Shown: piece by piece, positions 1-48,321 of the stretch
How positions within the stretch are numbered: the stretch's first letter is position 1
Layout: each line of letters starts with the position of its first letter
Program-made: the position numbers and the translations under genes
Notes under the pieces: generated by a model
Database searches by the model: none
Told to the model about the DNA's origin: nothing
Seen by the model: the letters and a program-made list of their open reading frames with translations, nothing else
Assembly: GCA_030144725.1 (NCBI GenBank)
Contig: JASKMD010000015.1
Coordinates: 70,481 to 134,480, forward strand
From: Haematococcus lacustris
Lineage: Eukaryota > Chlorophyta > Chlorophyceae > Chlamydomonadales > Haematococcaceae
Direction of reading: 5' to 3'
DNA: 64,000 nt

Positions 1-217
1 CCGGCCCTGCAGGTTAGCCACCACCTCAACAGACTGTCGTGCCAGCTACTAGCACTGCAGGCGACTGGGCCTGCACCCTACCGCCCTCACCCTCCCTCAC
101 CCTGGCACACTCGCTGCCCTCCCCCCTGCCAGCCTCATGCAGGGCAGCAGGAGCCAGGTCACGAGCACGCAGCCCCCCCTGCCATGCAGCCCCCCAGCAC
201 CCCCCATCACAGAGTAC

Positions 218-1952
218 CTATCAGGGCAGAGATGCCTGTGCCTGCCAGCGTGAAGAAGGGGATGCCCAGCTCCTCCAGCTGCTGCTGCACCAGGCCGCTG
301 CTGACATGCTCCTGGAACCCTAGCTCAGGCTCACGGTGGAGCTGGCGCCGCACAGCCACCTGCAGGGGCAGGGGTGAGGGCAGGGGTGAGGGCAGGAGGG
401 GCTCCCAGCTGTGGCCGCAGCTGCGCACCCCTGACCAGGTCACAGGCCCTGGCCGGCTCTAACCAGGGACCTCATGGCCAGGGTTGCTGCACAGCATCAA
501 AGGTTACAGGAGGCGGAGCAGAAAATACGGATTGGTGCCGCCTATTTTAGCTTTAGACCGAAAATTCGGATTACATATAACGCATCTCCTAGTAGTAGGG
601 AAACTATGCGCTGATCAATCATGGCTGTCACCCTGGCCACCTGGGATGCGGTGTGGGAGGTGTACCTGGACCCCAAGTGGGCACGGCAGCGGCTGAGGCT
701 GTACGGAGCCCAGGACCGGGCGTTGGAGCAGTTTTTCAAGAAGGTGAGGATGGGTGGGTGGGAGGGTTAGGCATGAAGTGATAGAGTAGTTGACTGTGTG
801 GGGTGCTGATGCGGTGTTGCGGGCCTGCTGCAAGGTGGTGTGCAGGCCCAGGGGCGCAGGCCAGCGGCGGGGCAGGGTGTGCTAGTGGATGAGCACCGCA
901 CCACCCGGGTCAGCTCAGCAGTGAATGGCAAGCAGCCATGTGAGGAGCAGCTGAACCAAGGGCTGCCCACCAGGCCTGCTGACTGGAAGCCCCCAGAAGG
1001 GCAGGTGGAACACCGCCTGGTGCGCCCAGCCTGGAGCCAGCAGCGTGACCAGCCAGTGCGGAGCCTGATGTGGTGCCCGGTAGTGGCCCCCCGCAAGCCC
1101 CCACAGGCCCCATGCAGCAGCCAGGCAGCCACACAGCCAGCAGCCTCAGAGCCAGGGCCCCAGTACTCCCCCGCCAGCCAAGCGCAGCAAGCGCACCAAG
1201 GCTGAACAGGGCAAGGCTGCCAAAGCCAAGCCAGCACCACAGCCAGGCAGGTGGCTGGACAGGGACTGAAATGCAGCGCTGCACATGCAGCGCATTGGGG
1301 AGAGTAGGTGGCGCCCGCTGGAGCTGTGCTACTGGCCAAACCAGACAATTCTGCCAGCCAAGGGCAAGGAGTACCCTGGCCTGGGGTACAAGCGGCTGCG
1401 AGACAAGCCACCCATGGCCAAGCAGCAGCAGCAGCCTGCTGTGGCACAGTAGTGTGCTCCCCTTTGTTGAGCTAATATCAGCTCACAACCAGCGCATGTT
1501 TTTCATGCCAATTCTACACAATAGCCCTTGCGGTCAGGCAATAGTGTAGGTGGTGGGCACTCATGCACCATGTCCATGTGCATTGGGTTTACTCCACACA
1601 GCCCATTAACAACAGTATGAGTCGGGCCAGTATTGGTCCCTAGTATATGCTGCTGGTCCGGCTCAAATGGAAGCCCTAGTGAGGGACAAGGGGGCTGTTG
1701 GGGCTTCTGGGGAATTCTTTTAGAGTCTATGAAGAGGGTTATGTGCCTGGTTTGATAGGCAAGTCAAGGGGGGGGTGCTAGAGCTGCGTCCTGCCTGCCA
1801 GCATTGCCCACCATGTACTGCTGCAGTTCAGGCGAGCGTGCCTCAGCCAGCAGCTCCTGGGCCCAGCTGTCAGGGGTGCCAGAAGCTGTCAGGGGTGCCA
1901 GGGCGATCAGCAGCAATAGCGCCAGGGCACAGCCGCATGTGGCATGTCGCAT
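218..1952 (-). CDS. ILR1-like IAA-amino acid amidohydrolase (M20 family), first two exons
   Basis: Two exons are visible. Exon 1 (1952 to 1812) encodes 47 residues: a hydrophobic secretory signal (ALALLLLIALAPLTA) followed by LLAEARSPELQQYM. It ends in a GTGGGC donor. Exon 2 (359 to 218) follows a CTGCAG acceptor in phase 0 and encodes RRQLHREPELGFQEH and GTGISALIG, the conserved N-terminal motifs of plant M20 amidohydrolases (RR-LH--PEL-FQE, then TG-A-IG). It ends in AG|GTACTC. The family hydrolyses amide-linked auxin conjugates, usually in the ER lumen; the signal peptide fits that. The metal-binding and catalytic residues lie beyond the left edge of the window. Intron 1 (360-1811, about 1.45 kb) holds an antisense Fanzor-like element. 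Family assignment is secure; substrate is inferred. Confidence 0.82.
621..1452 (+). pseudogene. Fanzor/TnpB-like RuvC endonuclease, broken copy 1
   Basis: A 5' exon (621-744, starting MAVTLATWDAVWEVYLD and ending in a GTGAGG donor) is followed after a short gap by the C-terminal region. Key motifs are VDEHRTTRVSS (about 886-916), resembling the [D/E]-x-x-x-TS segment before the zinc ribbon of TnpB/Fanzor, and WLDRD-stop-NAALHMQRI (about 1255-1295), resembling the RuvC-III DRD-NAA-N motif. Breaks visible: one G missing before LVDEHR compared with copy 2 (near 877), a TGC to TGA nonsense change inside DRDCN, and loss of the RuvC-I/II stretch present in copy 2. The last readable codons run to TAG at 1450-1452. 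It cannot encode an intact nuclease. Calling it Fanzor rests on motif order, not on a search. Confidence 0.6.
1453..1697 (+). other. Conserved 3' flank of Fanzor-like copy 1 (candidate guide-RNA/right-end region)
   Basis: About 245 noncoding bases after the stop are closely matched by 5256-5510 after copy 2. Conservation ends abruptly after GAGGGACAAGGGGGCTG in both. A 6-bp inverted repeat (GTCCCT at 1636-1641, AGGGAC at 1682-1687) near the right end is kept in both copies. In TnpB/Fanzor elements the guide RNA is made from the 3' end and adjacent flank, so position fits; transcription is not shown. Confidence 0.4.
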
Positions 1953-2766
1953 CTTCGCGATGGGTGGCGTCTGGGACGCGCAAGCAATGAAGACGGGGTC
2001 ACACCGCTGAATCGGTGTGAGAGAGTTTTCTGTGCCCCATCGCGGTCACGATAGAGCCTGTTGCAAGAGAGTGCATAGCCCGACCGCTCACGTACATTGC
2101 TCGTCGTCCCGTCGTGCTGTCGATAGAAGACTGGCGTGCTGTTTGCGGTAGCTACACAACTTCTACGCCCCTACCCTGCCCTAGTTGCGATACAAGAACA
2201 TCCCGCCGGATAAAGTTCTAGTTGAGTGGCTTCCGCTGTTGCTTGCAGGCTTGACATAAGCAGGATGGAGCCAGGTTGATGGACCACATTGCGGTAGCGG
2301 GGAATAGCTGGTACGACGCGTGCGATGCGGCGCGCTTCAGTAGCTTCTGCACTACCCCAGCATTAACCATAACAAAGCATCCTGCCGGATCGAGTGCTAA
2401 CCGGTGGCCATGGTTGCACATCGACACAGCTCGCAGGGTCGCCGTATGTTTACAGGACCCACGGCAGCCACTCCCGCGACAGCCTCTACAGAAGAAGACC
2501 ACTCCGGGATGCAAAGCAGAGTGTACTACGGGACACAGCCTCAACACACACCACACTACTAGGTCAGCGGCGCCAGGCCACCCTTGTCAGCTGCCGGGAC
2601 GCTGAACCCCTGCCCTGTATAGTTACACCAAACCCTGGAGCCAACCTTGGTACACGAGCAGTGCAGGACACAGTGCTAGGTCCCAGCATCAGGCTGCTGC
2701 CAGTAGTCGACACATCTCCAGCCACCCGGCACTGTAACTTAGCGGGGGAAGGGGGTCACACCTGCA
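1953..2766. other. Intergenic region between divergent ILR1-like promoter side and psaG 3' end
   Basis: No convincing gene found. Short open frames on both strands lack recognisable domains or splice context. The part next to 1952 should contain the promoter of the ILR1-like gene, but no element is identifiable by eye. Confidence 0.5.
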
Positions 2767-3832
2767 TCACACCAGCAGGCCAGCAGCTGGCTGAGCCTGG
2801 GGGGCTGTGGGTGCACCCAGCTGCCCGGTGCTTGCATTGCTACGTATCCCCCTGAGCAGTGGTGCCGCCCTACTCAGCTGGCCCGCGTGGCCTCCCCCAG
2901 CCTTCCTCCTGCAGCCCCCCCTGCTGCTCCGGCCTGGGTGCCCACCTGAGTCAGCCAGGCTGGAGGCGGCCAGCGCAGCAAAGCCCAGCACGTGGCCCAG
3001 GGCTCCCCAGCCCAGCACGTCAATGAAGCCCTGTGGGGTGAAGCAGCAGGGCAATGAGGTGGGACAGCTGAGGGGGCGGCCGTGGCAGGGGTGGGCTGAG
3101 TCGGGGCAAAGGAACGCAGGGCCCCAAGGCGGGGAGAGACAGCCATGCAACGCAGGCAGGCAGCTAGGGACCTGCTGGCTGGGTCAGGTCAGGTCGCGAC
3201 AGTGGCTCCAGCCCTAGTGAGGGCAGGCCAGGCGGAAGGTGGGCCCAGGCCTCCACCTGCCCTTCAGCAGGCCAGCTGCGCTCACCATGCTTGATGCTGC
3301 GAGATGCTGCTTGCCTGGTGACTTAGGCTGCGCTCTGCAGGCTACCTAGGTGGTGGGGCAGAACGCCATCTCGTGGCCGCTTTTGAACTTACAAACTTGG
3401 AGGGGTCCTTGGACTGCAGCGTAAAGGTGCTCTGCTGCTGCAGCTTGTCGAAGTAGGAGCTGCCCGTTGTCTTGGGCCCGGCGATTTCCTGCTGGTAGTC
3501 CAGCTCGCGGCGCTGGAACGGCAAGAACACGAACCGGCCCTGCAGCGTCGAACATCGCAGCGAGGGACAGCAGGCTGGTGACGATGATGTGCATGTTAGG
3601 ATAAAGAGATGTAGTCAATTGACGCGTATCTGAAACCCTGCATCGCTGCCAGGCCCTGGGCACCCTGTTCCGCGCTGCAATGCACAGGGCTGCTCACAAG
3701 GACCAGCATCGCACAGGTTGCTCCCCCGATTGCGACAGCCGGACTCAGCATGGCCTTCACAGGCTGCACAGCCCGAGCGGGTCGGGCAGACCGCATAGGG
3801 CGCACGGATGTCTGGCGGACGGATAGGGCCAT
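2767..3832 (-). CDS. psaG: Photosystem I reaction centre subunit V (PsaG)
   Basis: Three exons on the minus strand. Exon 1 (3832-3698, 45 codons) gives a basic, Ser/Arg-rich plastid transit peptide and the start of the first membrane helix (AVAIGGATCAMLVL), ending in GTGAGC. Exon 2 (3539-3393, 49 codons) begins GRFVFLPFQRREL and contains GPKTTGSSYFDKLQ, matching the signature of algal PsaG; it ends in GTAAGT. Exon 3 starts at 3030 with GFIDVLGWGALGHVLGF, the second helix. PsaG is a two-helix thylakoid protein at the edge of PSI near PsaB that stabilises LHCI binding. The C-terminus is uncertain: read straight through, exon 3 runs to 2767 and adds about 60 residues not expected for PsaG, so another splice or an earlier end near 2945 is likely. 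First two exons and frame are well supported. Confidence 0.9.
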
Positions 3833-4488
3833 GGCTGCTTGTAGTGTGTTACGTTGAAGCCCTGAACTGCGCTCCGCTGTGGTCGTGGATCTCTAACGGT
3901 GACTGTGTGACTTTTAGCTTGACCTGCTTGCTCAGGACGGCGCTCCTTGCCTGTTGTGCAGGACCGGCAGGGTGAGTGAGGCAATTCCAATCACGACAAC
4001 AGCTTGATGCTTGATGTTATGTCGTGCGCATCAAAACTCAGCCAAATCAAGCCACATGCTGATGTGCATGCCGAGCCCACATCTCGCTAAATGATTGATG
4101 ATGATGCAATGGGATCTTACGCAGTGATGCAGTGAGTACAGAGTTTACAAAAATACTTACTTACTTACGCCGTGTAACTACGTGATCATGTGTGTAATTA
4201 AATGTAATCTATATACACAAAAGAATTGGCTTGTAACTCCTACTCTTATGGTATTGAGCCTGCATGGGCACGCCTCAGTGTCCTCACAGGCAGCTAGCAC
4301 AAGCGCTGACTTTGCAATATGCTTAAAACTAGCAACAGCAGCCCTCACCAACAGCAGCCCCCCCGACTGCTCCCTGGTGAGTGTTGGGTGGGAAGGTGGG
4401 TAAGGGACTGTAAGGTGGTGAACTAGGCATGACGTTGACTGTGCCATACCTAACCTGATGCCACCATGTCAGCCACCATGAGTGTGCC
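3833..4488. other. psaG upstream region and AT-rich patch
   Basis: Holds the presumed psaG promoter. From about 4000 to 4330 the sequence is much richer in A and T than its surroundings. No gene was recognised. A possible exon fragment of the Fanzor-like element may end at the GTGAGT near 4377, by analogy with copy 1, but it has no identifiable motif. Confidence 0.45.
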
Positions 4489-5255
4489 TTGCGTGCATGG
4501 CTGCAGTTGGAGGCTGCAGTTGCATGGCGGAGGCGCCATAGGCATGCCAAGCAGCTGGTGGTGTTCTTTGGAGCAGCTAGCATTGGCACTGCGGGATGGT
4601 GGGGTGCTGATGCTGTGCTGCGTGCCTGCTGCAAGGTGGTGTGCAGGCCCAGGGGCGCAGGCCAGCGGCGGGGCAGGGTGGTGCTAGTGGATGAGCACCG
4701 CACCACCCGGGTCAGCTCCGCAGTGAATGGCAAGCAGCCATGTGAGGAGCAGCTGAACCAAGGGCTGCCCACCAGGCCTGCTGACTGGAAGCCCCCAGAA
4801 GGGCAGGTGGAACACCGCCTGGTGCGCCCAGCCTGGAGCCAGCAGCGTGACCAGCCAGTGAGGGGCCTGATGTGGTGCCCGGTAGTGGCCCCCGCAAGCC
4901 CCCACAGGCCCCACTTGGCAGCAGCCAGGCAGCAGCCAGGCAGCCACACAGCCAGCAGCCTCAGAGCCAGGGCCCAGCACTCCCCCGCCAGCCCAACGCA
5001 GCAAGCGCACCAAGGCTGAGCAGGGCAAGGCTGCCAAAGCCAGGCAGGTGGCTGGACAGAGACTGCAATGCAGCGCTGAACATGCAGCGCATTGGGGAGA
5101 GTAGTTGGCGCCCACTGGAGCTGTGCTACTGGCCAGACCAGACAGCTCTGCCAGCCAAGGGCAAGGAGTACCCTGGCCTGGGCTACAAGCGGCTGCGAGA
5201 CAAGCCACCCAAGGCCCAACAGCAGCAGCAGCAGCAGCCTGCTGTGGCACAGTAG
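4489..5255 (+). pseudogene. Fanzor/TnpB-like RuvC endonuclease, broken copy 2
   Basis: Better preserved than copy 1. One frame from about 4489 reads RHAKQLVVFFGAASIG, GADAVLRACCKVVCRP and VLVDEHRTTRVSSAV, then VRGLMWCPVVAP. Near 4888 one C is missing from a C-run relative to copy 1, shifting the frame; the other frame continues through WLDRDCNAALNMQRI and LPAKGKEYPGLGYKRLRDKP to TAG at 5253-5255. The DRDCNAALN motif is intact here. This order (beta-strand-rich RuvC segment, TS-like/zinc-ribbon segment with degraded cysteines, DRD-NAA-N) matches the C-terminal half of TnpB and its eukaryotic homologue Fanzor. The N-terminal half is missing or unrecognised. Inactive as it stands. Confidence 0.62.
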
Positions 5256-5510
5256 TGTGCCCCCTTTGTTGAGCTATTATCAGGTCACAACCAGCGCATG
5301 TTTTTCATGCCAATTCTACACGATAGCCCTCGCTGTCAGGCAATAGTGTAGGTGGTAGGCACTCATGCACCATGTCCATGTGCATTGGGTTTACTCCACA
5401 CAGCCCATTAACACCAGTATGACCCGGGCCAGTATTGGTCCCTAGTACATGCTGCTAGGGCCACTACTGGTCCGGCTCAGAGGAGGCCCTAGTGAGGGAC
5501 AAGGGGGCTG
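5256..5510 (+). other. Conserved 3' flank of Fanzor-like copy 2
   Basis: Matches 1453-1697 almost throughout, with an extra 18-20 bases near 5455. The terminal GTCCCT (5438-5443)/AGGGAC (5495-5500) pairing is kept, and this copy adds a nested CTAGGGCC...GGCCCTAG pairing (about 5455-5492). Such structure fits a guide-RNA scaffold or element end; function is inferred only. Confidence 0.4.
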
Positions 5511-6180
5511 CTCCCCATCCCTACTGACGCTTAAGTTACATGTTTCATAGCATCAAGTGGTTTAGGTGGCGGAGCAGGCGATGATTAGGTCAGGCGTGCA
5601 GTGAGGGGGTCTGTCGAGCCTGCAGAGCAGCAGGAGCCATGTCCACGCTGCGGATTGTCCCTGGGCAGCAGCTGCTGTGGGGCAGAGGCAGTGTAGCCCA
5701 CAAGGCCATTGCAGCTTGAGCCCAAGTGGTGTACGTTGGTCATGTTGCCCCAGCTGCTGCTGCCGCCCAGCAGCCACTGCGGTTGTGTTGTGAGATGGTG
5801 GTGCAGGGGGCAAGCTGAGGCTGCAGCTGCAGTGGAAGGCTTTCCGGGTCAGAGTGCTGTGCAGCCTAGGGAGAGGCAGCGCAGGAGGGGAGGCGACACT
5901 GCCGTTACGTTAGCTCCCTTTGCGGCCCTGTCTGTACCCTGCTTGCTGCGGCTGATGAAGGCACGGCTCCCCGTCCCCCATGAAGGCGCACAGCTGCTAT
6001 CAGCGCGAACAGGGCCTTCATCAAGGCATAGTACAGCGGGGGTAGAGCGGGGGTAGAGCTACAAAGCCGGCATGGGGTGCGGGCACGCAGGCAACAGAAG
6101 CGCGTGCCGCGCTGCATGTGCTTGCGCCATCACAACATTACAAAAGCGTCTGTCTCGAGGCAAGACAGCCTAAGCCCGCG
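5511..6180. other. Intergenic region upstream of the cyclophilin gene
   Basis: No gene recognised. Contains a short motif near 5548-5577 resembling 494-522 next to Fanzor-like copy 1, and the presumed promoter and 5' UTR of the gene starting at 6181. Confidence 0.45.
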
Positions 6181-7691
6181 ATGCTTGCCTCATGCTCGAC
6201 GCTTGCCATCTCTGATGCATCTCGATGCGCCCTCTTGCCCGGCACGCGGCGACATGCCTGCGCTGTGCTGCATGTGCGAGATGGACGCAAGCTGACCTGC
6301 TCATCAACACGGTGTCAACGGCGCCACGCTTTGGGGCGCCAGCAAACAGTTAGGCAGGCAGCCCACAGGGGTGATGTCTGTTCATATGCAAACCAACAGC
6401 AGCAGCAGCGGCAGCAGCAGCAGCAGGAGCAGCAGCAGCGGCGGCAGCAGCAGGGGCAGGGGCAGCCGCAGCAGCTGCAGCAGCAAGGGCAGGGGCAGCA
6501 TCAGAAGCTGCAGCAGCAAGGGCAGGGGCAGCAGCAGCAGCAGACATTGGTGTGTGGCCTATCTAGACGTCAGCAGCTGCTGGCGGTGAGTCTGCTCACA
6601 GCGCAGGCCAGCATGCTGCTACCCAGCTGTCAGCCCTTGAGGGCGGAGGTGCTGGATGTCAGCCGGCAGGGTGGGCTGCGTGAGGGCGAGCCAGACATCA
6701 CCCACAAGGTAGGCTAGGGTGCGGCCCCGCAGCTGCCAGGCCGCCGCCTCCCCCCCCACCGGCATGGCCCTGGCTCAGCCCTGACTAAGACCACTGGCTT
6801 CCAGCTCCCTCTGCCCCCCCATACCCCTGTCCCGCTCCGTCCCCCTCTCCCTCCCCCAGCCCTCCTCTCCCTCCCCCCGCCGCTGGCCCCGATCTGCCCC
6901 TCCCGCCCCCCTCCCCTTGTGCTGCCCCAGCCCCCGGCCCTGCCCTCTGGCCCCCAGGTGTTCCTGGACATTGCAGTGGCGCCGCGCTCCTTCAAGCGCG
7001 CCAGCGAGCGCACCCTAGGGGACGCCAGCGTGCTGCCACTGGAGGAGGCGCAGCCACTAGGGCGCATCGTGCTGGGTCAGTGGGGGCAGGGGGCAGGGGG
7101 CAGGGGGCAGGGGGCAGGGGGCAGGGGGCAGGGGGCAGGGGGCAGGGGGCAGGGGGCAGGGGGCAGGGGGACTACCAGGTAAAGGTCAGGCTTTTGCCAT
7201 GTGAGGGAGGTGGGGAAGCTGACCTCCCTCACAGCAGCATGTTGCAGCCTTCTGAACAGACCTGACCCTGACCCTGACCTCGCTCCCCCCCTCAGCCGCC
7301 CCTGCTGCTCTGCCCCTGCTGCGGCCCCCAGGGCTGTACGGGCGCAGCGCCCCCAGCACTGTGGCCAACTTCCTGCGCCTGGTGGCCTCAGGCGCCCTGG
7401 CTGACACAACCTTCTCCAGGGTGCTGCCGGGCGAGTACATCCAGGTCAGGGGAGGGGAGGGGGGCGGCAGGCTTGATTGAGAGGGGGGGGTAGCGGTGCT
7501 GGGGGAGAGGGCTAGGGGCTGAGGCTGGGAGGCGGAGGAGGGGGGGCAGGGACAAGGAGGTGGGGACAGAGGAGGGGGGAGGGCGCCATTGGCTTCACAC
7601 AGGCAGTGGTGAGGGGTGTCCTTGCTCTCTCCTGCCTAAGGCTCTTGCTGCGTGCCGCTGCCCCTGCCCCCGCTGCTGCTGCGCCCCTGTG

Positions 7692-7778
<87 letters not shown>

Positions 7779-9429
7779 CAGGTCAGCAGGGCGCACACCG
7801 GTTGGGGCAGGTGGACGCTGAGGCTGCTGACCTGCAGGTGGGGCTGGGCAGCGCTGGCCGAAACGGGTCAGGGTGAGGGCTGGGCCCAGGGCAGGGTGCG
7901 GCCTGGGCAAGATGGGGACTGGAGGGGTAGGGTAGAGGTAGGGCTGTGCAAACCCTGGCCTGGCTCTGGCGATGCCCTTGCCCTTGCCCTGGGCTGCGCA
8001 AGCCTGGCTGCCTGGGCTGGTGGGAGCAGGCCGCCCCCCACCTCCTCCCTTCATGCACGCCGGCTCGGCCGGAGTAGCCGTGTTCTTTTTCCTGGCTGTC
8101 TGGCCCCTCTGGTTCTGGCCGCCCCCCCGCCCCCCTGCCGCCTGGCCTGAGCCTGGCTGCCCCCCCCCCCCCTGGCCTGCGCAGCCCAACCCTGACATGC
8201 TGCGCTCCGCCGCCTTCCTGCCCCGCCACCTGCGCCCCGGCACCCTCAGCCTCAGCCTGGGGGCGGACAACGACGAGGATCCAGGCGTGCGGGCCAGGCC
8301 AGGCTACAGGCCCACTGAGTTCCTGATCACCACGGGTGGGGGGTGGGGGGGGGGTGAGGGGGGTGAGGGGGGGGGGGGAAGGAGGTGGGGAAGGAAGAAA
8401 AAAAGGGGGGAGGGGAGGAAAATGGGAGGGGGAGGGGGGGGAGGGAGGTCAAGGTTGGGAAAAGAGGCGTGGGGGAGGGAGGGAGCAAAGGTGTTGGGCT
8501 GCTGGCTGCCCCCTAGGCCAGCCGCCTCACCCCGCTGCTGCCTCCCCTTCCCCCTTCCCCCCGGGTGCCCGCCCTGGCGCCGCCCTGCCCTGATGGCCCC
8601 GCTGCAGGCCCTGGCCCAGTGCCCAGGCTGGACAACAGCAACCTGGTGTTTGGCAGGGTGCTGGAGGGCATGGCCACGGTGGCCAGCATCGCGCAGGTGG
8701 GGCCGCACAGGGGGCCAGGCAGGCGGTGGGGGCAAGGGGCAGGGGGCGGCAGGGGGGGACAGTGGGGCTGGTGCAGGGGCTGAGTACCTTGGGTGGGTCA
8801 GGCTGGGGTCAGAGCATCTGGATGACGTGAGGGGGGATGATGGGAGGTGGCTGGCCCTGCGCCTAGCTTCAGAGGCCTGCCGCCATGGTCCCTGCCCCGC
8901 AGCCCCTCCGGGTCCCCCTGCACCCCCCTGCCCCCCCTGCACCTACCCCCTGCACTCCCAAACTCCCCTGTCCTCCTGAATGAAAGCCGTCCCCGGCCCT
9001 AAACATCAAGGGGGTGCCGGGGCTTGCTCAGGGCCTGGCTGGGATGGCTCCGCTCAGTCTCGCTCAGCCTGCCTCTGCTGCCCCGGCCCTGTGCTGGCCT
9101 CAGGTGCCCACCTTCAAGCCCTCGGACCGCAGCAAGCAGATCAACATGTTCGCACAGAGGTGGGCGCGGCAGGGTACGGGGGGAGGGACACGCCGTGGAA
9201 GGGTGTAGCGCGGAGCGGGCACCATCCACTTCGTGCACTTGTTGCCGCCCGTCATCCTGGTGCCTGCAGTATCGGTGACGACCGCGCAGCGGGGGTGCGG
9301 CGCAAGTACGGCAAGCCGCTGAAGGCGGTTATCATCACGTCGGCCGGGGAGCTGCCGTTAGACGCGCCGCAAGAGCCGCCATTGACGGCACTGGTGTCCA
9401 GGGAGACCGCAAGCGCTGCGGTCGCATGA
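6181..9429 (+). CDS. Thylakoid-lumen cyclophilin-type peptidyl-prolyl isomerase (CYP26-2/CYP28-like)
   Basis: Eight exons join in frame to 424 residues: 6181-6708, 6958-7075, 7332-7444, 7778-7837, 8185-8335, 8608-8696, 9104-9159, 9270-9429; all introns are GT-AG. The ATG at 6181 opens a Ser/Ala/Arg-rich transit peptide. A twin-arginine lumen signal follows (SRRQQLLAVSLLTAQ, ending PLRA), so the product should cross the thylakoid by the Tat route. The cyclophilin fold runs from KVFLDIAVAP through GRIVLGLYGRSAP, STVANFLRLV, TEFLITT, DNSNLVFGRVLEGM and the C-terminal KYGKPLKAVIIT. The active-site Arg/Phe pattern of canonical PPIases is not clear, as in divergent lumenal members. A 50-residue Gln-rich tract (about 6397-6545) sits between transit peptide and Tat signal. 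Substrate unknown. Confidence 0.87.
7081..7171. repeat. GGGGGCA heptanucleotide tandem repeat in cyclophilin intron 2
   Basis: About 13 near-perfect copies of a 7-base G-rich unit starting five bases after the donor at 7076. G-runs of five make it a strong G-quadruplex candidate on the coding strand and in the pre-mRNA. Confidence 0.85.
7693..7773. repeat. (CTG)27 microsatellite at the intron 3 acceptor
   Basis: Twenty-seven uninterrupted CTG units, followed directly by CCAG, the 3' splice site of exon 4 at 7778. It replaces the usual polypyrimidine tract. Confidence 0.95.
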
Positions 9430-14198: not shown

Positions 14199-14566
14199 GC
14201 CCTCAGGTGGAATCGCCCTCAGGCCATCTCCCTGCAGGGGGGTGGGTCCTGGTCGCACCTGTTGCCGTACTGTCATTCAGGTGTCCCCAACATTCAAAAA
14301 ATGGCTGGAAATGATAGGAAACCGACCCCTGGTAATCAAAACGACGCCGCGTCTCAGCCACGTGGTTTCTATTTAGGTTTCGCACATCCCTGGATAGAGG
14401 ACTCTGTCAGCTATGCGGTGCAGCTTGTAACATTAAATACTGTGCACTGTGCTGAGTGCTATGGCGGCTCGAATCTTGACATTCAAATTCATGCCAGTTT
14501 TGCTCATGCGAGCCTCGCCGCGACCGACCGCCGCGACCGACGTGGCCCAGTAGCCTCTGCAAACAG
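14199..14566. other. Intergenic region between convergent genes
   Basis: Lower-GC stretch between the stops of two genes that face each other. No RNA gene or ORF with recognisable content; probably both 3' UTRs. Confidence 0.4.
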
Positions 14567-17290
14567 TCAGGGACAGTCGCCGCAGTCAAAACAATGCACA
14601 TGGCACGCAAAACCGATGTAACGACGCCCCTCCACCCATGCTCGGAAGTATACAACGCTGGTGCATTGCTTGACCGCTTCGTGAGTAGTACCTACTACCT
14701 GGCCACTCTGTAAGGCCACACAAGGTGTGTAGGCCATTGCTACGTTACCTTGCTCGACTTGTTGGGTCCGGTCCCTCCCGCCCGCCCTCCGCTTGCGTGT
14801 CGAGCTGGTGTCCAGCTCCGCCCTGACCCCCTGCTGCTCAGCTGGAGGGGTGGGCAGCCCAGGGGCAGCACCAGCACCTGCTGCCTGCTGCTGCCAGGGG
14901 GGTGCAGCAGGAGGGGGGGGCAGCCCAGGGGCAGCACCAGCACCAGCCGCCAGCTCCTGCCAGGGGGGTGCAGCAGGAGTGGGGGGCAGGTCAGGTGCGG
15001 CACCAACACCTGCTGCCTGCTCCTGCCAGGGGGGTGCAGCAGGAGGTGGTAGCAGGTCAGGGGCGGCACCAGCACCAGCTGCCTGCTGCTGCCAGGGGGG
15101 TGCAGCTGGAGTGGGGGGCAGGTCAGGTGCGGCACCAACACCTGCTGCCTGCTGCTGCCAGGGGGGTGCAGCAGGAGGGGGGGGCAGGTCAGGGGCGGCA
15201 CCAGCACCTGCTGCCTGCTGCTGCCATGGGGGTGCAGCAGGAGTGGGGGGCAGGTCAGGTGCGGCACCAACACCTGCTGCCTGCTGCTGCCAGGGGGGTG
15301 CAGCAGGAGGGGGGGGCAGGTCAGGGGCGGCACCAGCACCGGCACCTGCTGCTACCCCCAGCTCATCGCCATGCAGGGCGGCTACTGTGTTGCAGATATG
15401 GGCCATGACAAGACCCTTCAGCTTGGGCTTCAGCCACCCCTTCATAAGCTCCTGCTGGTGGAAGCGAAGGTAAGCTTGCAACTCCCTAACAGATAGCTTC
15501 TCAGCCTCTTCGACAGTGGTGTGGCTGTAATCGCGCCCATCATAGGTCAGAGAATATGCTGCTGACAGTCTATGCTGCCCCTCATGGTCCCCCACATCAA
15601 CCACCACCTGTCCCACTCTACGAGTTGCTGCTGCTGCTTTCATCTCCGCCTTTGCTATCCGTCGGGCCATAGCTGCTGCTGCCTCCTCACGCCGCACTTC
15701 CTTGCGTAGGTCTGGCAGCCGCTGTGCAAAGTCAGGCACGTCCACGCCGCCAATGGCATCGATGTGGGTACGCATGGACATGAGCTCAAGCAGAGCTGGT
15801 AGCTCCATGAACATGCCCGTCCCATGCTTGAGTAGCTGCAGCAGGGACTCCACAGGGGCATTGGATATTGGGCACGCAAGGTAGTACACCTCCAGATGCG
15901 ATTGAAGTTGTTGCTGGTCCTGCTCACTCAGCTCTTGCATGTCGGCCATGGCACAGATCTGCTTTTCATGCTTCTCCCATGTGCCATGCGCGTCCCACAC
16001 ACGAGGGTCACACATTGGCAGCCGCTGCCGTGTCCTCTTCTGTTGCTGGCCCTCCACTCCCTGCTGCTGCTGCTGGTCTTCCTGTTGTTGCTGCATCATC
16101 TCTGCATGGCTAACCACCTCTTGCGCTGCCTCCCAACGCGTTGTAGTGTCAGAGCTGCCAAGAGCTGCAAAGAGGCCAGGCAGGGCATTCTGCATCTGGA
16201 CGTGTTGTTCGTAGTAGCTTGACATGGCCTTGCAATGCACCTGCAGGTAGGTGAGCAGCTGATGCATGTGCAGCCATCAAACTGCACGTGGATCGCTTCG
16301 GCTCGTCGTAGCTGATCTGCATGCACAATGCATGGTCAACAATGCGCCTACCACCTTCCAATCCAGCCCAGCCCAGCCCAGCCCAGCCCAGCCCAGCCCA
16401 GCCCAGCCCAGCCCAGCCCAGCCCAGCCCAGCCCAGCCCAGCCCAGCCCAGCCCAGCCCAGCCCAGCCCAGCCCAGCCCTTACCTAGGGTTCGTTGCCGA
16501 ATGTATTTGCAGACCACACGCTGCTGCCGGCCCATAGTTGTGTGCTCGCCAGGCCGGTGAGTGTTGGCCACCACACACTGCTCTTTGATGAACAGCCGCC
16601 GGCATGTGGGACATGTGTCTTCAACATCAACTTGGCTGTGCTGAGGTAGTGCTGAGCTGTGAATGCTGCTGTCCTTGCTGCTGGCTTTCCAGGTGGGGCC
16701 TCTTGCGTGGGGATGAAGAAGTCAGAGGGCTCAGGTGGGCTCGGCCCCGGTGTGGGCTCAGGTGGGCTCGGCTCCGGTGTGGGCTGCACTGTTGTGCCAC
16801 CAGGTCTGCCATGGGTGTCAAGTCGGCTGCAGTTGCTGTCAGCCCACCGCCGCAGGACCTCAATAGAAACACCTGTTTGCTTTAAGATCTGTAGTTGCTG
16901 CCTCTGCTTGCGGGTTAGCTGGGGCCGGCGCTGATACTTGCGCAGCTGGGCCTCTAGGCGGTGCACATCACGCCTTGCAATTGTAATAGCCAGGTTGCAC
17001 TCCTCGATGACTGCCTCAAGAGACTCGTTATCCAATCTCAGCTGCCTGTGTGCTGCCTGTAGGTGCTGGTGCTTCTCCTCAAGGTCGTGCACTTTGGCAG
17101 CAAGGACCTCCTCAATAGCATGTAGCAACTGAGCCTCGGTCATCAGCAGCTCATTCTCTGCCTGCACCTCCTGGGCAATGTCGTTAGCCCTCCTTGCTGT
17201 AGCTTTTAGGCCATTAGGACTGTGCAGGTGGGCAGCCCTTGGTGACTTTACAAGTGCTGCAAGATGAGCACGCTGCCGGCTGGGACTCAT
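14567..17290 (-). CDS. Unknown protein with coiled coil, CxxC motif and 22-residue repeats
   Basis: The model combines two large open stretches. The 5' one starts [17 protein letters not shown] (17290) and has a long Leu/Glu/Arg coiled coil (about residues 30-130: [20 protein letters not shown] onward), a basic [18 protein letters not shown] segment, then a Pro-rich linker. Near 16620-16500 a second frame reads [16 protein letters not shown] and [15 protein letters not shown], so a splice or frameshift joins them. It ends at a GTAAGG donor before a pentanucleotide repeat intron. The 3' stretch (from about 16267) begins with helical, Gln-rich sequence, carries [20 protein letters not shown], and ends in eight 22-residue repeats and [14 protein letters not shown]. 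The CPTC and [11 protein letters not shown] clusters suggest zinc binding. Family not recognised; it may be a domesticated or still mobile transposon gene. Exon joins are uncertain. Confidence 0.5.
14830..15355. repeat. 66-bp coding tandem repeat (22 residues, 8 copies)
   Basis: Unit encodes [20 protein letters not shown] plus G and A/V. Copies alternate GAG...PPPP and GVG...PPTP, so the true unit is a 132-bp dimer. The length is a multiple of three, so the frame is kept. Confidence 0.9.
16364..16479. repeat. (AGCCC)n pentanucleotide repeat in an intron
   Basis: About 23 perfect units between the GTAAGG donor near 16490 and the next exon of the minus-strand gene. In the transcript it reads GGGCT. 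Confidence 0.95.
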
Positions 17291-18568: not shown

Positions 18569-21500
18569 TCAACGCAGCTTCACTTCAATCACCTCCGTCG
18601 CAGCAGCGCAAGGTGACCACTGCGACAGCTGCATGCGAGGCCTGGGTGATGGCCCGGGCCGTAAGCAGGCCGTGCTGCTACTGCTGCAGCGCCTGTGGGT
18701 GCCTACACCCCCATCACCAAGGCGCTGTGGCTGGAGCGGCTGGCTGGCGGGCATGGCGCAGCNNNNNNNNNNNNNNNNNNNNNNNNNNNNNNNNNNNNNN
18801 NNNNNNNNNNNNNNNNNNNNNNNNNNNNNNNNNNNNNNNNNNNNNNNNNNNNNNNNNNNNNNNNNNNNNNNNNNNNNNNNNNNNNNNNNNNNNNNNNNNN
18901 NNNNNNNNNNNNNNNNNNNNNNNNNNNNNNNNNNNNNNNNNNNNNNNNNNNNNNNNNNNNNNNNNNNNNNNNNNNNNNNNNNNNNNNNNNNNNNNNNNNN
19001 NNNNNNNNNNNNNNNNNNNNNNNNNNNNNNNNNNNNNNNNNNNNNNNNNNNNNNNNNNNNNNNNNNNNNNNNNNNNNNNNNNNNNNNNNNNNNNNNNNNN
19101 NNNNNNNNNNNNNNNNNNNNNNNNNNNNNNNNNNNNNNNNNNNNNNNNNNNNNNNNNNNNNNNNNNNNNNNNNNNNNNNNNNNNNNNNNNNNNNNNNNNN
19201 NNNNNNNNNNNNNNNNNNNNNNNNNNNNNNNNNNNNNNNNNNNNNNNNNNNNNNNNNNNNNNGCCTTGACGGTGAGCACCAGGAGGGAGGTGTTGCCCAT
19301 GCCCCAAACCTGAGGGTCTAGCTGCACTTGGGACCAGGGTCCGAGCAGCCACTCCTCCCTAGGCCAGGAGGGGGGGGCCTCCCTGCCCGCTGAGCCTGCC
19401 CCCCGCTCCCCGCTGTGATCCCCATCCCTCCCACGACCCCTGCCCCCACCCCTACCCCTACTGCGCCCAATACCCTGTGCCCTTCCCCCCTCCGCTGTCT
19501 GCCCGTTGTCCCTACCCACACCCTCGTCCCCCACCTGCCCCCCCCTAGGCTCCAACGCTGCAGGGGCAGCTGCCCCCCCCCGCTGCTTCGGGAGCGGCCG
19601 CATGTGGGCGGCACGCTCCTCAGGGGACAGCCGATAGTGGGGCTTGTCCAGGAGCACCACTGCTGCAGCCTGCCACTCCTCCCCGGGGAGAACCCCTACA
19701 GCCCCCAAGGGACCCTGCCCTTGAGCGTCCAGGGCCACCAGCCTACCGCTAGGTAACACCCAGTGGGTCGGCCGCTGAGAGGGAACGCGACGCACCAGGA
19801 AGCCCGTCCCGCCCCACGCACACTCCCACTCCGGTGCTGGGAGCTGCCGAACATCCACCACCTGTTGCCACGGCTCCGGCAGGGTGGCCCGCGCCATGTC
19901 AGCCTCCCACCTCACGGCTGCCTGCTGCTCAGCTGAGACGAAGGCGGAGCGGGGTCGATGGAGGGCCTCGCGCACGTGCCGGACGTGGGTCCAGCGCAGG
20001 GCCTCAACTGCCAGGGGGTCACTGTCTGGCCTGCCCCGCAGTCCGACCAGAGCGTTGAAGCGCAGCGGCTCCGCGAGCACCGAAAAGTGAGATTGGGCGG
20101 CCGGGGCCACCACGCGGTGGAGCTTGAGCTGTGCAATGGCTGTGACGTGGGCCTGTAGGCGGGGGCTCAGGTTGGGCACGGGGGAGGCTGTGGGGTCCGT
20201 GACTACCCAGGTGCTAAGGCTGTGTTGGGGATCGGCGAGCAGGCTGTGCAACAGGGGCTGCCACTCCCGGACTCTGGGCGAGAAGAGCTGGGCCACAGTT
20301 TTGGCTAGCATGGCGGTGCTGGTGATCTCCAGGTCTGGCAGCCCCAGCCCACCCTCCCGTCGGGGCATCACACAAGTAGCGTCGTTGGGGTAGAGGCAGG
20401 CCATGTTGGGGCTACGCTCCTGGGGTAGGTCCGAGGCTGCCACAAAGTGCTTGACCGCCTTGCCCATCGCCACTCCGGCTGCAGCCAGGGGCTGCACGAA
20501 CGCCATCTGGTAAATGGCCTTTGACGCTAGGCATTGCTGCGCCACTTGCACCCGACCAAGCAGGTTGAGACCTTGCGGTCGCCAGGGAAGGGAGGCGGCC
20601 ACCATGACTGTTGCTGCCCTTCCAAAGGCAGCCTCGCTCATGGCGGAGTAGCTAGGTGCCCCGAGGGGCACCCCCAGGTGCCGGACGGGTACGCCCTGTG
20701 GCGAAGGGGGGATGGTCACGGCTCCAGCTCCGGTCCCTGGCCCTGCACCACCTTCACCCTCACCCGCCCCCTGGCCCTCCCAGACCTGGCCCCCCCGCTC
20801 CGCCCCGCCCTTGCCCCGGCCCCGCCCTCTGCTCCTAGCCACCCCCTCTCCCCCTGCCCCGCCACCTCCCCCCTCCACCTCAGTCCTACCACCCCCAGCT
20901 GAGGCAAGCTGGGAAGGGTTGGCGGCAACTGTTGAGGAAGGGGGCACCTGCCTGAGAGACCTGTGCTGCTGATGCTCCTGACCACCACCTCCCTCGTCCA
21001 GCCTCTCTCCTCCTCCGTCCTTGCTGCTGCCAGCCCCTCTGCCATGCCCCGCTCCTGTGCCTCTGCCCCTCTCTAGGCTCACCGTCCCGCTCTTGTCCCT
21101 CTGAGCCCTGTCCGCCCCCGTCCCACCCTCCCCGCTGCCCCCCACCCAACCTGTGACCCTGCCCTCCCCTGTGCTGGCCGCCCCTGCGTTGCCCTCCCCC
21201 CTTTGGCTGCCCGCCCCTGCTCTGCCCCCCTCCTGCCCCGCTGCCGAGACCTCTACCGGCTGACCACAAGAGAGCGCTGAGCTCTTGGCTACGCTGAGGG
21301 CCGGCCCCCCTGCAGCTTGGAACAGGCCAAGGGCCTCCAACACCACCGCCCCGTCCCTGACCCTGTCCAGCACCGCGATGGTGAGGTCGTCTGCATACTC
21401 CTTGGAGGGGAGGACTGGAAGGAGGGTGGGCTGACACATGGAGAGAGGGCTGTGGGGGATGGTGGGTGTGTTGATGCGGCCTGCCAACTGCAGGGAGCTG

Positions 21501-23745: not shown

Positions 23746-26700
23746 CTAGACTTGGTGGGCCCCCGCGCGGGCTACGCGTGAACTGAACAGAGCGTGCGAG
23801 CCCTGAGGGGGAGGGGGTGGGAGTGGCGTCTCGACGCAAACCGCTTTCTTACGGCAGGGAGAGGGGACGGCGTGACGGGCTGTGCCCGGGAGAGCTAAAG
23901 GCGGGCGAGGTGGTAGGGGAAGGTAGAGGTCCAACCTCCGCTCCCGCCCTGACTCGTGCCCCACGCCGGCCTCTTGGCCCAAGCCTACAGCTGACACCGC
24001 CACTGGCCCCGCTGGCGCTCCTTCGGCCGAGCGAGCCTCACTAACCCTCCTACCTACTCCTGGACCCACCATCCAACCTGCTCCCAACCCAGGCCACCCT
24101 TGTAGACCCCCCTGACCTCCCCCTTCCCTACTCCCCCGCTGGCGCCCATGCTGGCCCCCCTGTAGGCCTCCCTGCTGGGCACCTTGGCCTCCCCCCTGAC
24201 CATCCCCCCCTAAAACCTCTGGCCCCCTAGCCCCTTGACGCGCTGGCCGAGACCTCTTCCTCGCACTGTACCCAGCTGCCCCCTGGCCTGCGGAGGAGCA
24301 CGCCCCTGGCATGAGAGGGGAGGGATAACGGCGCTGCCCGGCCTGCCCGGCGTGCTGCTCAGGCCCCAAGCTACCATCCTCGGACTCCAAATCTGAGAGC
24401 ACCCCATAGCGGACGCGAGGAGGGGAGATAGGTAGGACACTGTCCTCTGAGCTGTCACAGTCCATGACCCCGTACCTGACCATCTGTGGTGCCTCCGTGG
24501 GTGGACTGATGGCCATAAGGGGAGGGCAGAGATGAGCAGGTAGCGGGGCTGGGGTGGGCTGCGTTATACCAGCTCCGTGGGCTAGCTGGCACGGATCCCT
24601 GGGCCGGCGAGCCCGGTCAACTAGGTCCTGGAGCGTCCTAGCTGCACCCCGGACAAACCTCTCCATCCGCAGGACGGCTGTGCCCTTGACGATGGGGCGT
24701 TGAGTGGGGGGCCCGCCCAATGAGGGTCGCAGGGTGGGGGAGCTGAGCACGTTGGAAGGTGAGGGAGGGAGACGAGCCACATCCATGTCAACTGGGGTAG
24801 CAGTGCCCGCAACCACAGAGAACCCAACTGCAGGAACCATCGCCAGCTGTCCTGTCCCCGCCAACACCCGCGCTGCTGTGCCTGAGGCTGCACCAGCCCT
24901 TTCCTCTACCCACTGACTAGCCCTCCTGCCCAACCTAGTAAAAGCGCAGGTCTCCTTGCCAACTGTCCTAGGAACGAAGGCCAGCGGTGCATGAATTCTT
25001 GGGTGCCCAAAAAGGTTGGCCCGCTGTTGCTGCTGCGCAAGGGCACCCTTGAACTCCTTTCCTCCCTCGTACCCCGCCATGCCACCCCCTGCTGGGGCGA
25101 GCTGGGTGGGGGTGGCCATGACCGGCGCTGAGGGGGAGCCCTGGCCTGCTTGGCCAACCAGCTGCTCCCGAGCCTGGCTACCCTGACCCCCCTTCCCCCG
25201 CTCGTAACCCGCCATGCCACCCCCTGCTGGGGCGAGCTGGGTGGGGGTGGCCGTGACCGACGCCGAGGGGGAGCCCTGGCCTGCCTGGCCACCCAGCTGC
25301 TCCCGAGCCTGGCTACCCTGACCCCCCTTCCCCCCCTCGTCACCCGCCATGCCACCCCCTGCTGGGGCAAGCTGGGTGGGGGTGGCCGTGACCGGCGCTG
25401 AGGGGGAGTCCTGGCCTGCCTGGCCAACCAGCTGCTCCCGAGCCCGGCTACCCTGACCCCCCTTCCCCCCCTCATAACCCGCCATGCCACCCCCTGCTGG
25501 GGCGTGCTGGGTGGAGGTGGTCATGATCGGCAGGGCGGGGGGGCCCAGCGGCGACTGACTGGACCCTGCAAGAAAAGGACCCGCCGCTCCCCCCCTCCTA
25601 CTTACTGGCGGATGGTCGGTGCAGAGGTCGGTGTTGGGTGTACGTTGCGTGGTCAACGAGCGAGACGGACCCCACGAAGAGTCAAAGCGGGAGGGCTTGA
25701 AGATAGGGCCTGGAGCCAGGGCTTGAAGCTGCTGAGGCTTGGCGGAAGCTGTGGCTGGGTGAATCACCTTGGTACCACCCTTGGCAAGGCGGGTATACCG
25801 AGGGCGTAGGGAAACTGCCGGTGAGTCATCCTCTGATGTCGCATCGGGCAGAGGTAGCAGCATAGCTGCAGCAAACCCTGCAGTGCCACTCCCTGCTGGG
25901 GTGAGCTGGGTGGGAGGGGCAGCAGGTGTGGCTGGCGCGGGGCCCATGACGCCCTTGTCGGGCAGAGGCTGCAGCAGCTGGGCACGCTCAGGCTGGATGC
26001 CTGCAACACACACTGCAGGGCCACCCACTACTGGGGTGAGCTGGGTGGGAGGGGCAGCAGGTGTGGCTGGCGCGGGGCCCATGACGCCCTTGTCGGGCAG
26101 AGGCTGCAGCAGCTGGGCACGCTCAGGCTGGATGCCTGCAACACACACTGCAGGGCCACCCACTACTGGGGTGAGCTGGGTGGGAGGGGCAGCAGGTGTG
26201 GCTGGCGCGGGGCCCATGACGCCCTTGTCGGGCAGAGGCTGCAGCAGCTGGGCACGCTCAGGCTGGATGCCTGCAACACACACTGCAGGGCCACCCACTA
26301 CTGGGGTGAGCTGGGTGGGAGGGGCAGCAGGTGTGGCTGGCGCGGGGCCCATGACGCCCTTGTCGGGCAGAGGCTGCAGCAGCTGGGCACGCTCAGGCTG
26401 GATGCCTGCAACACACACTGCAGGGCCACCCACTACTGGGGTGAGCTGGGTGGGAGGGGCAGCAGGTGTGGCTGGCGCGGGGCCCATGACGCCCTTGTCG
26501 GGCAGAGGCTGCAGCAGCTGGGCACGCTCAGGCTGGATGCCTGCAACACACACTGCAGGGCCACCCACTACTGGGGTGAGCTGGGTGGGAGGGGCAGCAG
26601 GTGTGGCTGGCGCGGGGCCCATGACGCCCTTGTCGGGCAGAGGCTGCAGCAGCTGGGCACGCTCAGGCTGGATGCCTGCAACACACACTGCAGGGCCACC

Positions 26701-29700
26701 CACTACTGGGGTGAGCTGGGTGGGAGGGGCAGCAGGTGTGGCTGGCGCGGGGCCCATGACGCCCTTGTCGGGCAGAGGCTGCAGCAGCTGGGCACGCTCA
26801 GGCTGGATGCCTGCAACACACACTGCAGGGCCACCCACTACTGGGGTGAGCTGGGTGGGAGGGGCAGCAGGTGTGGCTGGCGCGGGGCCCATGACGCCCT
26901 TGTCGGGCAGAGGCTGCAGCAGCTGGGCACGCTCAGGCTGGATGCCTGCAACACACACTGCAGGGCCACCCACTACTGGGGTGAGCTGGGTGGGAGGGGC
27001 AGCAGGTGTGGCTGGCGCGGGGCCCATGACGCCCTTGCCGGGCAGAGGCTGCAGCAGCTGGGCACGCTCAGGCTGGGTGCCTGCAACACACACTGCAGGG
27101 CCACCCACTACTGGGGTGAGCTGGGTGGGAAGGGCAGCAGGTGTTGCTGGCGCGGGACTCATGACGCCCTTGTCGGGCAGAGGCTGCAGCAGCTGGGCAC
27201 GCTCAGGCTGGATGCCTGCAACACACACTGCAGGGCCACCCACTACTGGGGTGAGCTGGGTGGGAGGGGCAGCAGGTGTGGCTGGCGCGGGGCCCATGAC
27301 GCCCTTGTCGGGCAGAGGCTGCAGCAGCTGGGCACGCTCAGGCTGGATGCCTGCAACACACACTGCAGGGCCACCCACTACTGGGGTGAGCTGGGTGGGA
27401 GGGGCAGCAGGTGTGGCTGGCGCGGGGCCCATGACGCCCTTGTCGGGCAGAGGCTGCAGCAGCTGGGCACGCTCAGGCTGGATGCCTGCAACACACACTG
27501 CAGGGCCACCCACTACTGGGGTGAGCTGGGTGGGAGGGGCAGCAGGTGTGGCTGGCGCGGGGCCCATGACGCCCTTGTCGGGCAGAGGCTGCAGCAGCTG
27601 GGCACGCTCAGGCTGGATGCCTGCAACACACACTGCAGGGCCACCCACTACTGGGGTGAGCTGGGTGGGAGGGGCAGCAGGTGTGGCTGGCGCGGGGCCC
27701 ATGACGCCCTTGTCGGGCAGAGGCTGCAGCAGCTGGGCACGCTCAGGCTGGATGCCTGCAACACACACTGCAGGGCCACCCACTACTGGGGTGAGCTGGG
27801 TGGGAGGGGCAGCAGGTGTGGCTGGCGCGGGGCCCATGACGCCCTTGTCGGGCAGAGGCTGCAGCAGCTGGGCACGCTCAGGCTGGATGCCTGCAACACA
27901 CACTGCAGGGCCACCCACTACTGGGGTGAGCTGGGTGGGAGGGGCAGCAGGTGTGGCTGGCGCGGGGCCCATGACGCCCTTGTCGGGCAGAGGCTGCAGC
28001 AGCTGGGCACGCTCAGGCTGGATGCCTGCAACACACACTGCAGGGCCACCCACTACTGGGGTGAGCTGGGTGGGAGGGGCAGCAGGTGTGGCTGGCGCGG
28101 GGCCCATGACGCCCTTGTCGGGCAGAGGCTGCAGCAGCTGGGCACGCTCAGGCTGGATGCCTGCAACACACACTGCAGGGCCACCCACTACTGGGGTGAG
28201 CTGGGTGGGAGGGGCAGCAGGTGTGGCTGGCGCGGGGCCCATGACGCCCTTGTCGGGCAGAGGCTGCAGCAGCTGGGCACGCTCAGGCTGGATGCCTGCA
28301 ACACACACTGCAGGGCCACCCACTACTGGGGTGAGCTGGGTGGGAGGGGCAGCAGGTGTGGCTGGCGCGGGGCCCATGACGCCCTTGTCGGGCAGAGGCT
28401 GCAGCAGCTGGGCACGCTCAGGCTGGATGCCTGCAACACACACTGCAGGGCCACCCACTACTGGGGTGAGCTGGGTGGGAGGGGCAGCAGGTGTGGCTGG
28501 CGCGGGGCCCATGACGCCCTTGTCGGGCAGAGGCTGCAGCAGCTGGGCACGCTCAGGCTGGGTGCCTGCAACACACACTGCAGGGCCACCCCCTGCTGGG
28601 GTGAGCTGGGTGGGAAGGGCAGCAGGTGTTGCTGGCGCGGGACCCATGACGCCCTTGTCGGGCAGAGGCTGCAGCAGCTGGGCACACTCAGGCTGGGTGC
28701 CTGCAACACACACTGCAGGGCCACCCACTGCTGGGGTGAGCTGGGTGGGAAGGGCAGCAGGTGTTGCTGGCGCGGGACCCATGACGCCCTTGTCGGGCAG
28801 AGGCTGCAGCAGCTGGGCACACTCAGGCTGGGTGCCTGCAACACTCACTGCAGGGCCACCCACTGCTGGGGTGAGCTGGGTGGGGGGGGCAGCAGGTGTG
28901 GCAGGCCGGGGAGCCGCCACGCTCTCAACGGACCCAAACGGCAACAGCAGGCTACCCCTTGGCTGCATTCCCTCGAGCACCACAGCAGTGCTACCCCCTA
29001 CTGGGGCGTGCTGGGTGGGGGTAGCAACAACTGTAGTGTCAGGGGGAAGAGGGTGTACCTGCTGTTGCTGCCGCCGCCCTGGCAGCTGTGGAGCAGATGC
29101 CCCCAAGCCCTCTGTTTCCTTTCGTGCTAGGAGGCCAGCAGCAGCGCCGGTGCCAGGAGGGGGCTGGGAGGTGGTGGAAGGGACAAAGCAGGTCCAGCCA
29201 GGTAACCCCTCAACACTCGCCTGGGTGAGCAGGGTAGGAGCCGCGGCCTCTCCGGCATGCAAAGAAGCGCTCGTGGCTCCTGAGGCGTCCGCCATAGGCC
29301 CATCGGCTGGAGCATGCTGAAGGGTGGGCTGGGCAGGTGGGGAAGGTGAGCAGGGTGGTAGAGGTGAAGGGGGGGGGGCTGAGGGGGGATCAGGAGGAGG
29401 TGGAGGAGGAGGTTGGGGACCTGCAGGTCCCTCCGCGCCTTGCTGGAGAGGGGCCCCGTCCTCCCTAAAGACCTGGATACGCCCCCACCGCCCCATGGGG
29501 TTCTGCACACTCCTAGGCAGAAAGGCTAAGGAGGGGTCACCCGCTGGTGGGAACACCCAGGCCTCCACCACCCCACCATTCCCGCACTGTGTGCCTGCCA
29601 GGTAGCTGTACCGGGGGTGGTCACCCAGGCGCTCGTTGAACACGAAAGTGGAGGTGGGGTGTAAGACAGCAGGCAGCCCCTCCCCGCTGTACTCGCTGGC

Positions 29701-47950: not shown

Positions 47951-48043
47951 CCTATTGTCATCAACACACAGCCGCAGCCACACCCCAACACGGCATTTGT
48001 GGTAGCACGCAGAGCCTGTAAAGCAGCCAGAATCCAGCCATAG

Positions 48044-48256
48044 ATGGATACCCAACCTCAGGCTTATGACCAAGCAGCAACACCAGACATGTTAACGGTC
48101 ATGGCTGCCTTGAATGCGTTGCGGGCTGAGGTGCAAGTAGTGTCACAAAACAGTAGCACCGTGATGCAGGCATTACACTATCTTACCACTCCTGCCCCTG
48201 TCCCACCACCATCCTCCACCCCACCCCCACCCCCAGCTGTACACACTGCCTCATGA
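48044..48256 (+). pseudogene. Gag-like ORF fragment, left arm
   Basis: Starts MDTQPQAYDQAATPDMLTVM and stops after 70 residues, at a point where the right-arm copy continues into gag-type sequence. Truncated. Confidence 0.55.
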
Positions 48257-48321
48257 GTGCAAGGCATAAGTGGGAGGCATCATGCAGTTGGTCCCTAGCT
48301 TTAGCTACCTCAGACTTAGTC

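Follow-up and report, generated by a model that had tools for sequence, protein, structure and literature searches.

Fanzors and TnpBs are the closest described systems to the element analyzed here. According to the available portion of PMC10711439, Fanzors can be told from most TnpBs by a DPG motif and by a glutamate that precedes the zinc finger by six residues; a typical TnpB has a D-hydrophobic-G motif, and its glutamate is located about 50 residues upstream of this finger, which many Fanzors, not all, carry. The Fanzor motif was given as D-X(125,275)-[TS][TS]-XX-[C4]-X(5,50)-RD (Bao and Jurka 2013, PMC3627910), and the accessible part of the same source lists Fanzor1 elements for Chlamydomonas and Volvox. 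In Auxenochlorella, another green alga, a Fanzor is described as the product of the most abundant repeat (accessible part of PMC12633428). Analysis of a 64,000-nucleotide stretch of Haematococcus lacustris DNA (contig JASKMD010000015.1; the window) revealed two copies of a repeat, both broken in their coding part, whose relatives encode proteins with Fanzor-type motifs. The copies are likely dead relics, truncated at the 5' end, of an element of H. lacustris (or a very close relative) that is present in multiple copies, is probably mobile, and encodes a Fanzor-like, probably RNA-guided, RuvC nuclease.

The window holds two copies of the family, located 3.8 kb apart in direct orientation on the plus strand. 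Positions 798 to 1697 (copy 1) and 4599 to 5510 (copy 2) were 90.8% identical over 933 columns in blastn. Both copies contain the glutamate motif followed by RDxNAAL in a different frame; both are frame-broken. A sequence-only reading of this DNA had described two related copies, an in-frame stop in copy 1 and one-base differences between the copies, and all of these are present in the alignment. The lengths of the copies differ at nine places, including those one-base differences; of the seven further differences, three fall within the broken coding part (14, 1, and 17 bases) and four lie beyond it (6, 1, 12, and 1 bases). The differences between the copies fall at 8 third, 6 first, and 1 second codon positions (n = 15, too few). 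Because of their breaks, the window copies would have no function as proteins. A six-frame scan of the 64 kb found the RDxNA pattern nowhere except in both copies; the glutamate motif (E-motif) pattern matched both copies and one minus-strand position at 11081, which was taken as chance, and the G..DPG pattern had no match in the window. Searching with relatives (tblastn) placed the beginning of the family homology at about 621 in copy 1 and about 4426 in copy 2, where it falls inside an apparent intron. The RuvC-I segment and its DPG motif are absent from both copies, which are 5'-truncated. Their homology ends at one common 3' end, ...GTGAGGGACAAGGGGGCTG, beyond which the flanks do not align.

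The relatives were identified by protein searches. The 176-residue open piece of copy 2 revealed 456 proteins at an expectation value (E value) of ≤1, the RuvC-I region of P0120 used as query revealed 501 at ≤1, and a second-subfamily part of P0195 revealed 736 at ≤10. The best 120 of the 456, 501, and 736 matches were all from H. lacustris and were named hypothetical or uncharacterized; this species scope applies to the matches listed, as the prefilter of the search hides more distant relatives. The matches represent hundreds of protein clusters spread over many different contigs, and 352 distinct proteins formed the family sample. The copy 2 piece was at most 88% identical to these 352 relatives, over 108 residues, which suggests that the window derives from this species or from close kin. 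The 510-residue protein P0123 reads ...GVGIDPGVTQAVSAASG... (RuvC-I), then VVFFGAASIG...VVLVDEHRTTRVSS, and after the glutamate motif it continues with a GLMWCP stretch, a basic Pro/Lys-rich part, and WLDRDCNAALNM. Two subfamilies are both common: subfamily I (VDEHR...) includes the window copies and has about 130 residues from the glutamate to the last aspartate, as in P0123; in subfamily II (VDEFR...) this distance is 79 in P0250. The quartiles of the distance are 79, 126, and 133 (n = 214 motif pairs). A third type (VDEIRTSRVSSSVH) is present in P0215. The gene models P0183, P0195, P0220, P0237, and P0311 fuse at least two family units, which suggests nested or tandem insertions or merged models. 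The family is not described in the literature found on Fanzor/TnpB together with Haematococcus, zinc ribbon, or green algae, as far as its available texts extend (supplements and subscription papers lay outside this scope), and two papers on Haematococcus genomes (PMC7617258 and PMC10400597) do not use the word Fanzor in their main text.

The sequence-only reading had assigned the copies to Fanzor/TnpB, and the relatives support this assignment: they contain the DPG motif, the alternative glutamate, and RDxNAAxN in this order at Fanzor-like spacing. All three motifs (DPG, E-motif, and RDC) occur in one model in 56 of the 352 predicted proteins, a count of gene models, which may splice around lesions. 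Of 323 E-motif occurrences in the sample, 308 have TS or TT at E+3 and E+4, and in 90 cases the RuvC-I DPG lies upstream, with a median of 184 residues between aspartate and glutamate. The alternative glutamate (VDEHRTSRVS or VDEFRTSRVS) is separated by six residues from the first cysteine position, and the RuvC-III motif of the relatives is DRDCNAALN. A composite pattern of these motifs, written with the motifs already in mind, matched 63/352 real and 0/17,600 shuffled proteins. Conservation was determined in a set of 119 relatives assembled without regard to motifs (the remaining listed matches of the copy 2 piece, aligned to P0003). In this set, the glutamate was kept in 118/119 (98th percentile of columns), the WCP cysteine in 101/102, and the RuvC-III aspartate in 78/81 relatives. 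Part of the glutamate invariance seen in alignments A2 and A3 is circular, many members having been chosen by motif.

Comparison with characterized proteins pointed in the same direction. VDEFRTSRVS matches in position IDEFRTSSFC of the Parasitella Fanzor1 PpFz1, for which a structure has been solved (its chain reads LIDEFRTSSFCPKC and is printed as LIDEFRTSSFCPKCESDLE), and DEFRTS is identical between PpFz1 and subfamily II; the query that displayed PpFz1 was synthetic and already held DEFRTS, and the match had an E value of only 0.89. Alignment of a family profile (64 short-linker units of 206 cut) with the mimivirus TnpB-like protein L79 by hhalign covered the last motif in 18 columns (E value, 3e-4; probability, 38 to 39%), and its score was equalled by 0/60 shuffles. 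The Pfam family PF07282 (Cas12f1-like_TNB) matched 13 of 45 chosen members at an E value of ≤0.1 (best, 2e-4), and the next Pfam family matched 3. Three of eight proteins, P0237, P0293, and P0311, exceeded the PF07282 gathering cutoff of 26.3 (26.5, 29.8, and 27.6 bits). Searches of viral contigs with a relative's protein revealed 19 stretches that fit a pattern, 0 of which were confirmed; searches of viral contigs with motif patterns and with a 3' pattern gave zero matches each, as did a search of genome contigs with a motif pattern.

The first cysteine of the zinc ribbon is missing throughout the family sample. At E+7, the first cysteine position of Fanzors, serine was found in 310/323 and cysteine in 0/323 occurrences. 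The published pattern with CxxC...CxxC matched 0/352 proteins, and a relaxed E-CxxC form matched 1/352. The sequence-only reading had described the zinc-ribbon cysteines as degraded. As judged from the protein sequences, the loss is a fixed trait of the clade and not local decay of the window copies; the relatives combine it with retained motif residues. The family is called Fanzor-like here rather than a strict member because the strict motif includes the C4 finger, which the family does not have. Cysteines in QPC, WCP, DRDC, and LELC occur in both subfamilies. A tentative reading, on which we place rather little weight, is that Haematococcus harbors a greatly amplified Fanzor-type clade that works without a C4 zinc ribbon, perhaps with a rebuilt cysteine set (QPC, WCP, DRDC, and LELC) and with a long basic linker that replaces the ribbon in subfamily I, guided by a structured 3' RNA. 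If so, the clade would represent a natural zinc-ribbon-free eukaryotic RNA-guided nuclease that is invisible to searches with CxxC...CxxC patterns.

The guide RNAs of Fanzor and TnpB lie at the place that corresponds to the 3' segment of the copies (available portion of PMC10711439). Folding of the sequence from the stop to the element end gave z scores of -2.27 for copy 1 (1450-1697; 4/200 shuffles as good) and -3.63 for copy 2 (5253-5510; 0/200). The terminal 150 nucleotides of copy 2 gave a z score of -3.08, the 150-nucleotide pieces directly after the stop gave -1.23 and -1.09, and 150-nucleotide controls (two flanks and two coding pieces) ranged from -0.37 to +0.44. When the last 150 nucleotides were folded alone, GGGCUG at the very end paired with an upstream CAGCCC in both copies; in the full-length folds of the 3' segments the end pairs elsewhere. 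Six gene models of other loci, including P0045, P0148, P0016, and P0082, reach into DNA of the copy 1 3' type. The structured 3' segment ending at the common element end is a candidate guide RNA. A search of positions 1 to 8000 against Rfam revealed seven matches, all below the gathering cutoff.

Several results weigh against a Fanzor-like nuclease, and some of them favor an unrelated repeat-encoded protein whose likeness to Fanzor, confined to a few short motifs, is due to chance or convergence. No significant match in the Protein Data Bank (PDB) was found by sequence for the window pieces, profiles A1 and A3, the core, or the RuvC-I piece; matches to glucan-binding, O43_129, and CTPR chains at E values of 0.048 to 1.7 were rejected as uninformative. 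The sequence-only reading had proposed profile searches and structure prediction as checks. In the profile searches, the relatives match PF07282 weakly, as given above, and the window pieces match nothing in Pfam or NCBIfam (PF07282, 0/3). All three proteins above the PF07282 cutoff are multi-unit fusions whose units add up, so their scores are inflated; an unrelated NCBIfam TFIIB model also matched 13/45 members (best, 4e-4), and the Pfam support is thin because this spurious-looking match is nearly as good. PF16786 was found below its cutoff in two fusions. The structure check did not reveal the RuvC fold with its D-E-D residues: AlphaFold models from shallow alignments reached a predicted local distance difference test (pLDDT) score of 44.2 for P0123 (52 alignment rows) and 43.4 for P0250 (66 rows), and Foldseek gave 0/262 and 0/12 matches at an E value of ≤0.001. 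Poor models without a Foldseek match neither support nor refute a RuvC fold. In addition, the family lacks the C4 finger that the published motif includes, the RuvC-III aspartate lies only at the 77th percentile of columns, and with a median column 92% conserved among the 119 relatives only the glutamate and the WCP cysteine stand out. For the 3' segment, the fold of the terminal 150 nucleotides of copy 1 was not significant (z score, -1.06; 29/200 shuffles as good), and the DNA comparison comprises just two copies. An unrelated protein would nevertheless have to acquire three correctly ordered and spaced catalytic motifs with a nearly invariant glutamate, a DEFRTS letter-identical to that of a solved Fanzor1 (in the printed chain as well, the query having held those letters), and the 18-column match to L79; this explanation is considered improbable.

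A Fanzor-derived family whose nuclease has become inactive or repurposed throughout the clade and which travels as a passenger of another transposon is the more serious alternative, although we regard it as unlikely. The ribbon loss would then mark the loss of cutting, in agreement with the serine at the first cysteine position and with the 296/352 gene models in which, according to the pattern applied, at least one of the three motifs is missing. Relatives selected independently of motifs retain the glutamate, the WCP cysteine, and the RuvC-III aspartate, which argues against it, moderately so because these relatives are recent. An old segmental duplication of a host gene would account for the presence of just two copies in the 64 kb, on the same strand at a distance of 3.8 kb; it is very improbable in view of the hundreds of protein clusters on many contigs and of the homology that ends at a common 3' end with flanks that do not align. 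The reading preferred here remains that of remnants of a Fanzor-like element. In this element, intact relatives would fold as a RuvC nuclease, and an RNA made from the 3' segment would take its guide from the DNA just beyond the 3' end of the element. Like Fanzor and TnpB, the nuclease would cut DNA that matches the guide, and cutting may favor retention of the element or its copying by repair.

The features of the two copies are listed in Table 1. The intron assignment in copy 1 is based on the relatives, which join ...FFKK/FFNK to LEE....

Table 1. Features of the two repeat copies in the window
Feature	Coordinates	Strand	Basis or remarks
Copy 1, family exon (MAVTLATWDAVWEVYLDPKW...QFFKK)	621..743	+	tblastn of relatives, frame 3; corresponds to the relatives' stretch between RuvC-I and the glutamate motif
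Copy 1, probable intron start (GTGAGG)	744..797	+	Inferred; intron remainder and first part of next exon missing
Copy 1, broken C-terminal coding part	798..1452	+	Glutamate motif VDEHRTTRVSS, 885-917 (frame 3); RuvC-III motif RDxNAA, 1261 (frame 1, in-frame stop inside); final stop, 1450-1452
Copy 1, 3' noncoding segment to homology end	1453..1697	+	Candidate guide RNA scaffold; end common to copy 2
Copy 2, probable 3' portion of this intron, with AG at its end	4426..4506	+	Inferred; relatives' gene models read into it
Copy 2, broken C-terminal coding part	4507..5255	+	VDEHRTTRVSS, 4687 (frame 1); DRDCNAALNM in another frame, RDCNAALN at 5058 (frame 3); final stop, 5253-5255
Copy 2, 3' noncoding segment	5256..5510	+	

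Further candidates in the window were rejected. A third tblastn match at 16.3 kb is a low-complexity PSPAQ repeat; the underlying AGCCC run is located at 16285-16623, and gene model P0322 matches via that run. A short match at 14.3 kb is a single match to a tail unrelated to the family core, and a short match at 14.6 kb is likewise single. The piece QVSPTFKKWLEMIGNRPLVIKTTPRLSHVVSI at 14278-14394 is 90% identical to the C-terminal tail of gene model P0077 and is perhaps another dispersed repeat. Visual inspection for target duplications turned up no more than a weak 5-bp candidate, located at copy 2, which was dropped. Of the 53 open frames listed for positions 1 to 8000, 10 close to the copies were scanned with Pfam, which revealed no transposase or recombinase. 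Between the copies, an open frame on the minus strand (2770-3150) matches photosystem I PsaG/PsaK (PF01241; 23.0 bits against a cutoff of 23.2), in keeping with a green-algal origin, and is probably an exon of a host gene. The guanine-plus-cytosine content of the window is 63.6%, and no tRNA was found in it. A run of exactly 500 N at 18763-19262 is probably an assembly gap. A tandem array of a 135-bp repeat occupies 25722-29000 with about 23 copies, the inner ones 93 to 98% alike. A large near-perfect inverted repeat at 47610-49149 constitutes a long foldback structure; its arms comprise 47610-48002 and 48757-49149 (393 nucleotides, 98%), continued by 48001-48265 and 48493-48757 (265 nucleotides, 98%).

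If the preferred reading is correct, Fanzors have undergone a large expansion in an alga cultivated for astaxanthin, one that is missed by cysteine-based patterns and hardly picked up by family profiles. In that case, hundreds of H. lacustris "hypothetical proteins" would be repeat proteins, and the family offers a natural test of the need for the zinc ribbon in RNA-guided cutting.

The likeness to Auxenochlorella consists in a green alga with an abundant Fanzor repeat, which is known from the available description. With bacterial TnpB (IS200/IS605 and IS607) and Cas12f, the family has in common the PF07282 tail RDxNAAxN; the canonical TnpB RuvC-I motif D-hydrophobic-G is replaced by DPG in the relatives. 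Compared with the Fanzor motif in the accessible part of Bao and Jurka, the first spacing, [TS][TS], and RD fit, whereas C4 does not. With Fanzor1 proteins, e.g., PpFz1 of Parasitella parasitica, GtFz1 of Guillardia theta, and SpuFz1 of Spizellomyces, the family shares the DPG of RuvC-I and the RD of RuvC-III as described in the available print, and with PpFz1 also the glutamate motif DEFRTS/DEHRTS. Unlike Fanzor1, it has no CxxC...CxxC finger, and subfamily I has a long basic linker between the glutamate and the last aspartate. Finally, VVNVNEYLTTKTC...DRDENAAKNI of the Fanzor2-type mimivirus protein L79 (PDB 9b0l) resembles VVLVDEHRTTRVS...DRDCNAALNM of the family when set side by side by eye, and the last of these motifs was also aligned by hhalign; L79 keeps the C4 finger, whereas the Haematococcus family carries these motifs without it.

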